From the NCBI GenBank assembly GCA_030645675.1, contig JAUSLQ010000226.1, positions 1 to 37,495 of the forward strand: a stretch of DNA of 37,495 nucleotides, in the 5' to 3' direction. Numbering within the stretch: the first letter of the stretch is position 1; every line of letters starts with the position of its first letter. Made by a program: the position numbers and the translations under genes. The stretch comes from Actinomycetota bacterium (GTDB taxonomy: Bacteria; Actinomycetota; Acidimicrobiia; Acidimicrobiales; Ilumatobacteraceae). Positions 2,875-28,845 of the stretch are shown one piece after another. Under the pieces are notes generated by a model that ran no database searches, was not told the DNA's origin, and worked only from the letters and a program-made list of their open reading frames with translations.

Positions 2875-2890
2875 CTGAACGGTGGGTCAG
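2875..2890 (+). promoter_or_regulatory. Candidate operator of the shared 16-bp motif, before the ABC ATPase gene
   Basis: CTGAACGGTGGGTCAG matches the site at 5133 at 13 of 16 positions, with both outer arms (CTGA, TCAG) intact. It follows a possible -10 box TACGGT (2866-2871) by three bases, so a bound protein would cover the transcription start. The translation start lies 27 bases further on. Confidence 0.5.
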
Positions 2891-2917
2891 TCGCTCGCCA
2901 CGGTGTGGGGGATGTCG

Positions 2918-3976
2918 ATGGCAGATGATCGCGGGGCAGGGGGCGGCCACATCGAGCTGTCCGGCCTGTCGAAGTGGTACGGCCAGCAACAGGTGCTCGA
3001 CAACATCGAGCTGGTCATCGAGTCGGGCGAGTTCTTCTCGCTGCTGGGCCCGTCGGGGTGTGGCAAGACCACGACGCTGAGGCTGATCGGCGGCTTCGAG
3101 GACATCGAGCACGGTTCCGTGCGCATCGACGGCGTCGACATGCGCGGCGTGCCGGCCGAGAAGCGCCCCGTCAACACCGTCTTCCAGAGCTACGCCCTGT
3201 TCCCGCACAAGAGCGTCGCCGACAACGTCGCCTTCGGCCTCCGCTTCCAGGACTGCACGAAGGCGGAGGCCAAGCGGCGGGTGGGCGAAGCGCTCGAGCT
3301 CGTGCGGCTCAATGGCTTCGAGTCGCGCAAGCCGCACCAGCTGTCCGGGGGGCAGCAGCAACGTGTCGCGCTTGCGCGTTCGCTGGTGCTGCGCCCGAAG
3401 GTGCTGTTGCTCGACGAGCCGCTCGGCGCGCTGGACGCGAAGCTGCGCCGCGTGCTGCAGGTGGAGCTGCGCTCGCTGCACCGCGAGGTGGGCATCACGT
3501 TCGTGTACGTCACCCACGACCAGGAGGAAGCGCTGACGATGAGCGACCGCCTGGCCGTGATGAACACGGGCCGCATCGAGCAGGTCGGTGTACCACGCGA
3601 GGTGTACGACGAGCCGTGCAGCACCTATGTCGCCGACTTCCTCGGCTTGGCCAACCTGCTGCCCGCGGAGGCTGACGACCGCGGCGTGCAACTGCTGGGC
3701 GTGGAGGTGGCTACAGCCACCGAGGGCACGCGCGGCCCATGCACCGTGCTGGTGCGGCCCGAGCGGGTGACGCTGGTAGCACCGGCCGAGGGCCAACTGC
3801 GGGCGCGTGTGGAGCACGTGGTGTTCGCCGGCGCCGCGACGCACATCCACCTGCAGGTGGGCAGCAGTGCATTGCAGGCGGTGGTGCCCAACGACGGCGC
3901 CGCGCTGGCCGCGGTGGAAGGCGGCGAGGTGGGGCTGCGCCTGGCGCCCGACGCGCTGCGCGTGCTGCCGGCCTGA
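2918..3976 (+). CDS. potA: ABC transporter ATPase, PotA/polyamine-opine-iron type
   Basis: Energises import by an ABC uptake system, probably for a small cationic compound. Visible motifs are Walker A GPSGCGKTT (from about residue 44), Q-loop VFQSYALFPHKSV, signature LSGGQQQR, Walker B VLLLDEPLGALD and H-loop VTHDQEEA; a C-terminal TOBE-like region runs to about residue 352. I chose ATG 2918 because GGGGGA lies five bases upstream; in-frame GTG 2882 and ATG 2912 are alternatives. No permease adjoins it. The matching permeases and binding protein lie 23 kb away (25850-28810) and lack an ATPase gene, so this is the likely partner. The upstream motif at 2875 supports shared regulation. It ends two bases from the convergent Rieske gene. 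The substrate is inferred. Confidence 0.9.
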   Translation: MADDRGAGGGHIELSGLSKWYGQQQVLDNIELVIESGEFFSLLGPSGCGKTTTLRLIGGFEDIEHGSVRIDGVDMRGVPAEKRPVNTVFQSYALFPHKSVADNVAFGLRFQDCTKAEAKRRVGEALELVRLNGFESRKPHQLSGGQQQRVALARSLVLRPKVLLLDEPLGALDAKLRRVLQVELRSLHREVGITFVYVTHDQEEALTMSDRLAVMNTGRIEQVGVPREVYDEPCSTYVADFLGLANLLPAEADDRGVQLLGVEVATATEGTRGPCTVLVRPERVTLVAPAEGQLRARVEHVVFAGAATHIHLQVGSSALQAVVPNDGAALAAVEGGEVGLRLAPDALRVLPA

Positions 3977-3978
3977 CT

Positions 3979-5088
3979 TCAGCCCAACGGTCCGCGGGCA
4001 GCGAGGTAGTGCTTCGTGAACGCGATGACGAGTGCGTCCTTCTCCGTCAGCACTCCGTGTTCGAAGGCCCGTGACGACACGCCCTGCTGCACACGCTCGC
4101 AGACCAGGTTGTCCTGTGTGGCCACCAGCTCGTTGAACTCCACCACCGGTGTCGGGTCGAAGGCCGGTGCCTCGATCGTCGTGGGCGCGAACATGAACTC
4201 CATCGTCATCGTGGTGAGGTGCGGCCCCTTGGGGAACAGCGTGCTGACGATGGCGCAGGTGCCCGTCACGTCGATGAACCCGTTGGGAAAGATCGTGCCG
4301 CCGTAGTAGCTGTTCGCATCAGCCGCGTCGGCACCGCCGATGCCCGGCAGCAGCGGCAGGTCGACGGCGTCGGACGCCATGCTGTGGCCGCGTGCCAGCG
4401 CCACGCCACCGTCGTCGCGCTCGCTGTCGGTGACCCAGCCGGTGCGGTACAGGGGCACCAGCTCGACCAGCTCGGGGTGCACCCGCGTGCAGTGCAGGCA
4501 CTCCTGGTAGTTCTCCACCACGATCTTCCAGTTGGCCGCGATGTCGCACGTGGTGATGGCCCCGACCCTCAAGCCGCCGAACTGGAAGCGCGCGAGCGAC
4601 AACAGCTCGGCACAGTGCACTTCCATCCACGCGTCGAACGCCGGTGGGTCCTTGGCCATGCTGACGAACACGAAGCCCTGCCACTCGCGCACGTGGTACG
4701 CCCACAGTGGCAGCGCGGCCTTGTCCACCTGCTCGTCGTCGAGGTGCGGCGTGGCCACCAGCTGGCCGTCCAGTGCGTACGTCCACGCGTGGTAGGGGCA
4801 CATCAGCGAGCCCTGCGCGGTATCGGAGCGGCCGTCGCACAGGCGGGCGCCGCGGTGACGGCACACGTTGGCGAACGCGTGCAGCCGGCCCTTCAGGTCG
4901 CGGGTCAGCAGCACGCTCTCGCCGGCGAGATCCACCACCGTGCGATTGCCTGCAGCGAGGCGGTCGGCCCGGGCCGCGAGCATCCATCCGGCGTGGAAGA
5001 TGCGCTGCCGTTCCAGCTCGTACACCTCGTCGGAGAGGTAGTCCTGCCTGGTCAGTGTGCGGGTGTCGTGCGACGTGCCGTCAGCCAT
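3979..5088 (-). CDS. Rieske non-heme iron oxygenase, alpha subunit
   Basis: Oxygenase with 369 residues from ATG 5088, which has AAGGGAG nine bases upstream (a longer GTG start at 5130 lacks this). The Rieske [2Fe-2S] ligands are C76-x-H78 (VCRHRGARLC) and C97-x2-H100 (CPYHAWTY). The mononuclear iron site is in NWKIVVENYQECLHCTRVHPEL: H199 and H204, with E196 where a carboxylate bridges the two metal centres. This pattern is shared with quaternary-amine demethylases such as glycine-betaine, stachydrine and carnitine oxygenases, as well as with ring hydroxylases. Given the carnitine-to-betaine genes in the window, betaine demethylation is an attractive guess, but it is not proven. No reductase gene is adjacent. 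It is divergent from the aminotransferase across a symmetric operator. Confidence 0.88.
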   Translation of the reverse strand: MADGTSHDTRTLTRQDYLSDEVYELERQRIFHAGWMLAARADRLAAGNRTVVDLAGESVLLTRDLKGRLHAFANVCRHRGARLCDGRSDTAQGSLMCPYHAWTYALDGQLVATPHLDDEQVDKAALPLWAYHVREWQGFVFVSMAKDPPAFDAWMEVHCAELLSLARFQFGGLRVGAITTCDIAANWKIVVENYQECLHCTRVHPELVELVPLYRTGWVTDSERDDGGVALARGHSMASDAVDLPLLPGIGGADAADANSYYGGTIFPNGFIDVTGTCAIVSTLFPKGPHLTTMTMEFMFAPTTIEAPAFDPTPVVEFNELVATQDNLVCERVQQGVSSRAFEHGVLTEKDALVIAFTKHYLAARGPLG

Positions 5089-27636: not shown

Positions 27637-27640
27637 GCGT

Positions 27641-28810
27641 TCAGCCGCCGGTCTTGAACTTCGACCATGCCGTCTCGTACAGCGCTCGGCCCTCGTTGGA
27701 GAGGGGCTTGAACACCAGCGCCTGCGCGATCTCCTCGGAGGTGGGCACGCAGTTGCGCAGGTGCTCGGGCACGTAGCCCTGCCCGATGAGGTAGTCGGCG
27801 TCCAGCTTGGTCAGCGCCGGCAGGTAGCCGAGGTAGCTGAAGTTCTTCTCCGACACCGCGTTGTCGAGCAGGTAGTCGATGTAGAGGTGGGCCAGCACGG
27901 GGTTCGCCGCGTTCGAGACGATGCCGATGTTGTCGTTCGCCACGACGTACTCGCCGGCAGGCGGGTGCCAGAACCCCAACACCTCGGCGGGTACGCCCTC
28001 GGGCAGGTAGTTGATGGCCCCCGTGACTGGGTCGGCGCTCCAGACCTGGGCGATGGTGCTGGTGCCCTCCGGGAGATCTTGGTAGCCCTGGATGTTCACC
28101 TTCACGTTGACCGAATCGATCAGCTCGACGAGGTCGGCGAGGGCCTGGTCGATCACCGCTTGGTCCGTGGTGTTGACGTCGGTGAGGCCGCGGCGCAGCA
28201 TGGCCATCACGAGCGCTTCACGCTCGTCGTCCAGCACCGAGACCTGGCCCTTGAAGCCGGTGGCGTTCCACAGCGCGTCCCAACCGTCGGCCTCCACGTC
28301 GGCCGGGTCGATGCGGTCGCGGCGATAGCCGAGGCCCGTGCCGAAGAACGTGTACGGCACCGTGTAGGTGCTTCCGGCGTCGTACCACGGGTCGTCGAAG
28401 TTGGCCAGCACGTTGCCCCGGTTGGTGAGGTAGCTCTTGTTCAACGGCTGCAGCCACCCGCGCTCGACCAGCGCGCCCACCGTGTAGTTGGCGATCGAGT
28501 GGTGCACGTCGGCCTGGATGGCTCCGCTGGCCAGCTTGGTGGTGGCCTCGCTGTCGGTGGTGATGATGGTGATCTCCACCGAGACGCCGTACTCCCGCTC
28601 GAAGTCGGCGATCACATCGGGCGACACGTAGTCGTCGTAGTTGATGATGCGCAGCGGGCCCTTCTCCGGTTGCAGGCCGTCGGCGATGGGCTTGCTGACC
28701 TTGGTGCGCTGGGTGTCGCCGCCACACGCTTGCAGCAGGGGCACGCCGGCGCCGAGCAGCACGCCCATCTGGACGGATCGGGCGAGGAAGTCGCGTCGGG
28801 ACGATCTCAT
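27641..28810 (-). CDS. potD: Periplasmic-type binding lipoprotein, PotD-like, Tat signal
   Basis: Substrate-capturing component of 389 residues from ATG 28810. The N-terminus is RSSRRDFLARSVQMGVLLGAGVPLLQACGG: a twin-arginine motif followed by a lipobox (LQAC), so it is probably exported folded and lipid-anchored. LRIINYDDYVSPDVIADFEREYGVSVEITIITTDSEATTKLASG and NDNIGIVSNAANPVLAHLYIDYLLDN match the spermidine/putrescine-binding family. The upstream TTG at 28822 is a less likely start; GGGGGA precedes the ATG. First gene of the transporter-oxidase operon. Compounds other than polyamines are bound by relatives, so a betaine or opine is not excluded. Confidence 0.9.
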   Translation of the reverse strand: MRSSRRDFLARSVQMGVLLGAGVPLLQACGGDTQRTKVSKPIADGLQPEKGPLRIINYDDYVSPDVIADFEREYGVSVEITIITTDSEATTKLASGAIQADVHHSIANYTVGALVERGWLQPLNKSYLTNRGNVLANFDDPWYDAGSTYTVPYTFFGTGLGYRRDRIDPADVEADGWDALWNATGFKGQVSVLDDEREALVMAMLRRGLTDVNTTDQAVIDQALADLVELIDSVNVKVNIQGYQDLPEGTSTIAQVWSADPVTGAINYLPEGVPAEVLGFWHPPAGEYVVANDNIGIVSNAANPVLAHLYIDYLLDNAVSEKNFSYLGYLPALTKLDADYLIGQGYVPEHLRNCVPTSEEIAQALVFKPLSNEGRALYETAWSKFKTGG

Positions 28811-28829
28811 GTGTTCCCCCAAGAGTTGA

Positions 28830-28845
28830 TTGACTCGTGAGTCAG
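28830..28845 (-). promoter_or_regulatory. Palindrome at the potD promoter
   Basis: The plus strand reads TTGACTCGTGAGTCAG, containing the perfect inverted repeat TGACTC-GT-GAGTCA. It overlaps a minus-strand -10-like TATTCT (28844-28849). The outer CTGA...TCAA arms agree with the shared motif and the minus-strand form is about 11 of 16 identical to the reversed 2875 site, but the centre differs, so it may bind another regulator. Confidence 0.45.

Follow-up and report, generated by a model that had tools for sequence, protein, structure and literature searches.

Several regulators of carnitine and choline metabolism have been described in bacteria. CdhR of Pseudomonas aeruginosa is an AraC-family activator whose binding sites are direct repeats upstream of the promoter, with cdhR divergent from the operon, in the available part of one account (PMC5806209), and CaiF of Escherichia coli is an AraC-type regulator of carnitine metabolism in the available parts of two (PMC5806209, PMC2131755). 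CarR of Acinetobacter baumannii is a LysR-type activator of the carnitine monooxygenase pathway according to the accessible text of PMC11353897, and the box of the TetR repressor BetI is given as ATTGACG*CGTCAAT in that of PMC12442346. No TetR regulator of carnitine catabolism was found in a search of open-licence papers, and the term TetR does not appear in the accessible text of PMC2131755 or PMC11353897. Here we describe a 16-bp dyad, CTGA-N8-TCAG, that recurs at promoters in a 37,495-bp stretch of an Ilumatobacteraceae draft genome (contig JAUSLQ010000226.1, positions 1 to 37,495; hereafter the window). The dyad very probably serves as operator for a TetR-family protein (17589-18200), which would repress a carnitine/gamma-butyrobetaine regulon of six units. 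Judged by genome comparison, this is a well supported case of a known kind of system with what appears to be a new regulon.

The window is contig C241 of a 4.09-Mb draft genome that is 80% complete (G000). Its relatives are labelled G001 and so on, and contigs are labelled C plus a number. The genomes are related and several are incomplete; the p-values ignore kinship among them, which inflates each one. Genomes with an orthologue of the TetR gene are called TetR-positive and those without it TetR-negative.

Dyad sites at promoters of the window

The dyad was found at five positions, and a diverged form at a sixth, alongside the gene of the proposed repressor:

2875..2890, plus strand: putative operator (abcA), 3 bp downstream of TACGGT 2866-2871; present in 5 of 6 TetR-positive genomes examined
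5133..5148, no strand assigned: putative operator common to the divergent Rieske and aminotransferase genes; TAGTGT 5159-5164 (plus), TACAGT 5124-5119 (minus)
14237..14252, minus strand: putative operator of the coenzyme A (CoA) ligase-hydratase operon, adjoining TAATCT 14235-14230, with the ATG close behind
17557..17572, no strand assigned: putative diverged operator of the divergent tetR/thioesterase promoter, overlapping TATATT (minus) and TACATT (plus)
20731..20746, minus strand: putative operator of the operon for the beta-keto acid cleavage enzyme (BKACE) and carnitine dehydrogenase, 4 bp downstream of TACCAT 20756-20751
28830..28845, minus strand: putative operator of the potD operon, overlapping TATTCT 28849-28844
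17589..18200, plus strand: TetR-family regulator of 203 amino acids with a BetI-type C-terminal domain, the proposed repressor

An initial annotation had named the sites at 2875, 5133, 14237 and 20731 as agreeing at 13 or more of 16 positions, each next to a TAnnnT box. All four were present with at least that agreement, and the boxes TACGGT, TAGTGT/TACAGT, TAATCT and TACCAT lie near them. The remaining two had been described less accurately: the site at 28830, called weak with arms only, is a full dyad, CTGACTCACGAGTCAA, that overlaps TATTCT, and the one at 17557, called a single arm, is a nearly symmetrical, diverged dyad, CTAAATATACATTCAG.

Every site in the window overlaps a -10-like TAnnnT box or sits 1-10 bp from one, on either side, and site-to-box spacing for each gene appeared similar by eye in the relatives. 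This placement suits a repressor that blocks RNA polymerase. A word search allowing up to three mismatches gave six matches in the window where 0.77 were expected, and none of 100 shuffles reached six. Mismatches numbered three at 2875, zero and two at 5133 (its two strands), two at 14237, two at 20731 and three at 21464, the last within the xdhM reading frame.

Conservation and co-occurrence with the TetR gene

A matrix was built from the window's four named sites only (2875, 5133, 14237 and 20731) and scanned across 170 bp upstream and the first 20 bp of each orthologous gene, with a main threshold of at least 13, a lower one of at least 10, and 200 permuted matrices as control. The promoter count excludes G000 itself, Rieske rows where the same genome's aminotransferase gene (amt3) was present (the promoter is common to both), upstream pieces of 100 bp or less, and matches below 55% identity, such as a 48% ATPase match in G012. 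At the main threshold the site was detected at 32 of 42 promoters of TetR-positive relatives whose window counterpart has it, compared with 2 of 71 controls, which were promoters of different genes in the cluster, and none of 14 promoters from TetR-negative genomes. Permuted matrices found a mean of 0.125 and a maximum of 4 promoters, and none of the 200 reached 32. Conservation upstream of orthologous operons had been set beforehand as a test of the motif, and the 32 of 42 against 2 of 71 contradict a lack of it.

At the lower threshold the counts were 34 of 42 orthologous, 2 of 71 control and 2 of 14 TetR-negative promoters. By unit, the site was present at ATPase (4/5), aminotransferase (5/6), CoA ligase (5/11), bkace (12/12), potD (7/7) and Rieske promoters (1/1, counted only where the same genome's aminotransferase was absent from the data). 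The potD promoter carried a dyad scoring 10.3-16.1 in all eight genomes examined, window included. Among promoters with the site, mean pairwise identity was 0.74-0.90 within it and 0.29-0.51 in the 30-bp flanks, the sites being picked by score. The half-site reads YTGA[A/C/T][C/T][G/C][G/A], and positions 2-4 are T, G and A in all 38 sites from TetR-positive genomes, a set that excludes the tetR sites and is biased towards the matrix because it was matrix-picked. At the tetR promoter, 13 of 15 TetR loci share CTAAAT[A/C]TACATTCAG and the other two have variants; this tetR/thioF site was assigned by position, symmetry and conservation rather than matrix score.

Orthologues of the TetR protein (77-89% identity) occurred in 12 of 119 other genomes searched, namely 8 of 14 of the same genus and four others of the family, and a second collection added two loci (L172 and L178). 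The named records are metagenome-assembled genomes labelled Acidimicrobiaceae, Ilumatobacteraceae, or just Actinomycetota, Actinobacteria or Actinomycetes. All carriers of this protein seen here belong to one actinobacterial family, apart from two additional drafts of actinobacteria. The bkace site was present in 13 of 13 TetR-positive genomes (window included) and in 0 of 10 TetR-negative ones (Fisher's exact test, 8.7e-7, uncorrected for kinship). Left out of this comparison were G058 and G071, whose upstream DNA was truncated, G008, whose gene is interrupted by a contig end, JANYDH and G011, whose bkace is outside the stretch taken, and G033, G050, G061, G065, G087 and G105, in which the cdh match was broken or less close.

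In a phylogeny of 27 carnitine dehydrogenases, three changes of the TetR label are required, compatible with one gain and two losses, and the TetR-negative genomes G001 and G011 are nested among TetR-positive genomes of the same genus. G001 is 96% complete, and one 47.7-kb contig retains its aminotransferase, ech, ligase, acad2, thioF, cdh, bkace and xdh genes. On that contig no tetR lies between thioF and cdh, there is no site at thioF or bkace, and ATPase, Rieske and potD have no match. G011, just 63% complete and with bkace outside the stretch taken, is less informative. Upstream of thioF, where relatives have tetR, both genomes carry CCGAGGGTTT (one exact copy in G001, three in G011). It was considered as a replacement operator and rejected as a dispersed repeat: G011 has 45 copies in 1.8 Mb, often as close inverted pairs, G001 has 18, and four other genomes searched have 5-9. 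A second candidate, CTGAATAGCGGGTGAG (score 10.7) at the aminotransferase-operator position of G001, may be a decayed site; it was not counted as one since a 405-codon open frame ends within it.

The site also follows operon layout. Where the gene of the CoA ligase, acsNDP, lies more than 1 kb from acad2, the site was present in 6 of 6 TetR-positive genomes (window included); where the two are only 14-39 bp apart it was present in 0 of 5. G005 C212, a contig without acad2, was left out of this comparison, although G005 still counts as a miss among the 42. The site therefore marks promoters, not genes. Sites also occurred on contigs other than that of tetR, at bkace in G027, at the aminotransferase/Rieske and ligase genes in G008, and at Rieske in G005; some or all of these may reflect assembly breaks rather than real dispersal. 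The comparative data bear out the initial suggestion that the unlinked ATPase belongs to one regulon with the other units: the site persists at orthologous promoters, occurs together with the adjacent TetR gene, and is present at the ATPase promoter in five of six TetR-positive genomes examined (window included).

Proposed regulon and alternative explanations

We propose that a TetR dimer free of effector would occupy the core promoter, on the -10 box or immediately to either side of it, and block RNA polymerase. Six units would be controlled in this way: the divergent promoter of tetR itself, the ATPase gene, the paired Rieske and aminotransferase genes, the operons for CoA ligase and hydratase and for BKACE and carnitine dehydrogenase, and the transporter operon of potD. 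The effector would be a trimethylammonium compound of the pathway, namely gamma-butyrobetaine, carnitine, glycine betaine or a CoA ester of one of these; it would release TetR, and uptake and breakdown would then be turned on jointly. A broader reading is also likely, with somewhat less assurance: a BetI-fold TetR master switch with its own 16-bp operator would govern carnitine/gamma-butyrobetaine use, belong to another class than the AraC and LysR regulators, and join a split ABC (ATP-binding cassette) transporter, and its operators would follow operon rearrangement. As part of this joint reading, and held with the same assurance, operators would be present if a gene stands apart, absent if it is fused, and gone if the regulator is lost.

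Several observations weigh against a dedicated TetR operator. At the main threshold the site was missed at the ATPase promoter of G004, the aminotransferase promoter of G064 and the CoA-ligase promoters of G004, G005, G006, G027, VFMC and JANYDH, and potD scored below 13 in G002 (11.9) and G005 (10.3). The tetR/thioF site scores just 4.4-7.3 in 14 of 15 loci. Two TetR-negative promoters score at least 10, both in G001 (10.7 and 12.5); the 12.5 match is some 165 bp ahead of the CoA-ligase start, a position not shared by the other genomes. In G001, moreover, bkace starts 32 bp past xdhS, and because xdhS is so near, the missing bkace site may partly stem from loss of a separate promoter. A scan of the whole locus at 10 or more is unspecific, giving 58 matches where 20 permuted matrices averaged 21.5 and one of them gave 61. 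Genome counts of a narrower pattern do not separate TetR-positive genomes (G000 7, G004 1, G012 1) from TetR-negative ones (G009 5, G032 9, G098 13).

Genome-wide, the pattern YTGAHYNNNNRDTCAR has 17 matches in G000 and its reversed control 5; five of the 17 fall in the window (0.9% of the genome), all at promoters. The pattern was drawn from the window sites themselves, and the independent test is that in the relatives. The initial annotation had asked whether the motif occurs as often inside genes as upstream. The ten viewed of the 12 dyads outside the window (all but those on C263 and C264) give part of an answer: five lie just upstream of a start codon, two inside frames and three at frame ends. 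Homologues of window genes were absent from the stretches surrounding dyads on G002 C46, C57 and C93 (about 30 kb from the cluster) and on G027 C71 and C45, G033 C240, G005 C238 and G006 C317. Matches near 37.1 kb in G002, 34.2 kb in G013 and 18.6 kb in G031 were rejected as candidates; they lie in a second Rieske-like region next to potD and were taken to be coding.

Random occurrence in GC-rich DNA, where GGCCGATC is a common word of coding sequence, would account for the frequency of the three-mismatch word across the genome (81 matches, against 25 for the reversed control) and for the one window match in six, at 21464, that is coding. Such an origin is already contradicted by the dyad symmetry, the promoter position, the conservation (32 of 42 against 2 of 71 controls) and the failure of all 200 permuted matrices, and we give it next to no credence. 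It is unlikely, to a lesser degree, that the dyad serves a different regulator encoded elsewhere while the TetR gene is a bystander travelling with the cluster. The pairing of TetR and dyad rests on sequence comparison, the matrix scores the tetR promoter poorly, and dyads are also found outside the cluster, all of which would fit a bystander. Yet the bkace site is missing from all ten genomes examined that encode the enzyme and lack this TetR, a member of the same genus among them, and a dyad-like site lies in TetR's own divergent promoter at 15 of 15 loci.

The same protein could instead be an activator or dual regulator rather than a simple repressor. The site is upstream of the -10-like box at the promoters of the aminotransferase, Rieske and CoA-ligase genes, a position from which activators can also act, and the carnitine regulators in the available parts of the published accounts are mostly activators. 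The position of the site nevertheless varies between promoters (downstream of, overlapping or upstream of the box), which points to occlusion and not to contact-dependent activation, and we consider an activating role rather improbable.

The analysis defines a putative regulon from draft genomes alone, and the transporter ATPase, Rieske oxygenase and aminotransferase gain a testable metabolic context, that of trimethylammonium nutrients. The gain and loss of operators when operons are split or fused, or when their regulator disappears, also offers a natural experiment.

Other palindromes were noted in these genomes. TTGACC-N4-GGTCAA occurs five times in G000 (C16:27128, C24:2722, C71:10787, C83:694 and C264:28697; control 1), and a search of 15 genomes of the genus, its own included, gave 36 copies (control 12), spread over 11 of the 15. 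Four copies viewed lie 10-25 bp before a start codon, and two of the frames resemble acyl-CoA dehydrogenases by eye. This subset of the dyads looks like the site of another regulator, and perhaps marks another regulon. Separately, CTGAACGATCGTTCAA at C82:2064 of G000 (L077), about 45 bp before a frame that by eye resembles an acyl-CoA dehydrogenase, is a possible further operator.

Genes of the cluster and known regulators

The window carries a catabolic cluster of the carnitine type, acyl-CoA dehydrogenases included; the genes that surround the sites are as follows:

2918..3976, plus strand: ABC transporter ATPase, PotA-like (ABC_tran and TOBE_2 domains; below the PotA cut-offs; ATG at 2918 from the sequence)
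3979..5088, minus strand: Rieske oxygenase alpha subunit, related to glycine betaine/carnitine monooxygenases (GbcA model 169.6 bits, cut-off 670)
5171..6574, plus strand: class III aminotransferase (amt3), by family search
11417..12193, minus strand: enoyl-CoA hydratase (best NCBIfam model crotonobetainyl-CoA hydratase, 323.7 bits, cut-off 500)
12190..14223, minus strand: nucleoside diphosphate-forming acyl-CoA synthetase (acsNDP), by family search
15294..16454, minus strand: acyl-CoA dehydrogenase, by family search
16489..17553, minus strand: thioesterase (4HBT_2) with a shortened carnitine-dehydrogenase-like N-terminus, by family search
18230..19717, minus strand: carnitine 3-dehydrogenase fused to thioesterase (NCBIfam NF005716, 676.2 bits, cut-off 592)
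19719..20612, minus strand: BKACE (family match 1.1e-95)
26719..27636, minus strand: ABC permease, PotB-like, followed by a second permease at about 25850-26700
27641..28810, minus strand: extracellular solute-binding protein, PotD-like, by family search

Carnitine 3-dehydrogenase exceeded the cut-off of its model. The specificity models of NCBIfam all scored BKACE below their own cut-offs, and cleavage of 3-dehydrocarnitine is a candidate role for it. For the acyl-CoA dehydrogenase, a crotonobetainyl-CoA dehydrogenase role scored 171.8 bits (cut-off 540), less than the acryloyl-CoA reductase model (283.7, cut-off 640). The thioesterase at 16489-17553 aligns with the C-terminal portion of carnitine 3-dehydrogenase and weakly with the first 80 residues of that protein; it resembles a truncated copy of the nearby dehydrogenase-thioesterase. 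In this gene and that at 12190-14223 the ATG lies only a few bases past the -10-like box, which suggests leaderless transcripts. The PotA-like ATPase gene is unlinked to permease genes and far from the potD operon, and no ATPase was found beside potD and the two permeases among ten frames scanned there; the common operator plausibly joins ATPase and potD/permeases as one transporter.

The TetR protein matched TetR_N (PF00440, the N-terminal helix-turn-helix; 1.4e-12) and TetR_C_6 (the BetI-type C-terminal domain; 7.8e-12), and the helix-turn-helix is mostly invariant across 13 TetR sequences. It was predicted to fold into nine helices with an all-helical ligand domain; the predicted local distance difference test score was 87.8 for the best model and 65.6-77.0 for the other four. 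The nearest solved folds are TetR regulators, which places it in that family. Its computed operator is a palindrome at core promoters, including a diverged version at its own divergent promoter.

By sequence and fold the closest solved relative is a TetR regulator of Saccharomonospora viridis (4ICH, 4KWA, 4JNN and 4NEL; template modelling score 0.81-0.84), yet identity is only 26-27%. That regulator was solved with choline (4KWA), with benzamidine and with a small amine, and the choline offers only a hint of the effector. Bacillus FadR shares the TetR fold at 19-23% identity and governs fatty acid metabolism; its operator also has TGAATGA-type arms.

BetI, the choline-responsive TetR repressor of the bet genes, resembles the window regulator in family and in its BetI-type C-terminal domain. 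It is the best NCBIfam match, although the scores fall short of the BetI cut-offs (65.5 bits against 201.3 for TIGR03384; 54.8 against 118 for PRK00767). Both have palindromic sites at promoters of quaternary-ammonium metabolism, but the BetI box, in the form given in the available text, differs from CTGA-N8-TCAG in half-site and spacing. The targets differ as well: those of the window regulator are carnitine-type genes, and no betA- or betB-like family appeared among 30 window frames scanned. CdhR and CaiF, like the proposed repressor, have carnitine metabolism under their control. In the accessible parts of their descriptions, however, these two and GbdR of P. aeruginosa are AraC-family proteins, whereas the window regulator belongs to the TetR family and its proposed dyad site is at the core promoter. 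CarR likewise controls a carnitine catabolic operon and binds in the intergenic region that separates carR from the operon, as stated in the available portion of PMC11353897. The regulon proposed here would add a TetR-type repressor to carnitine catabolism, where the published regulators found, in the parts of the accounts available, are of AraC or LysR type.

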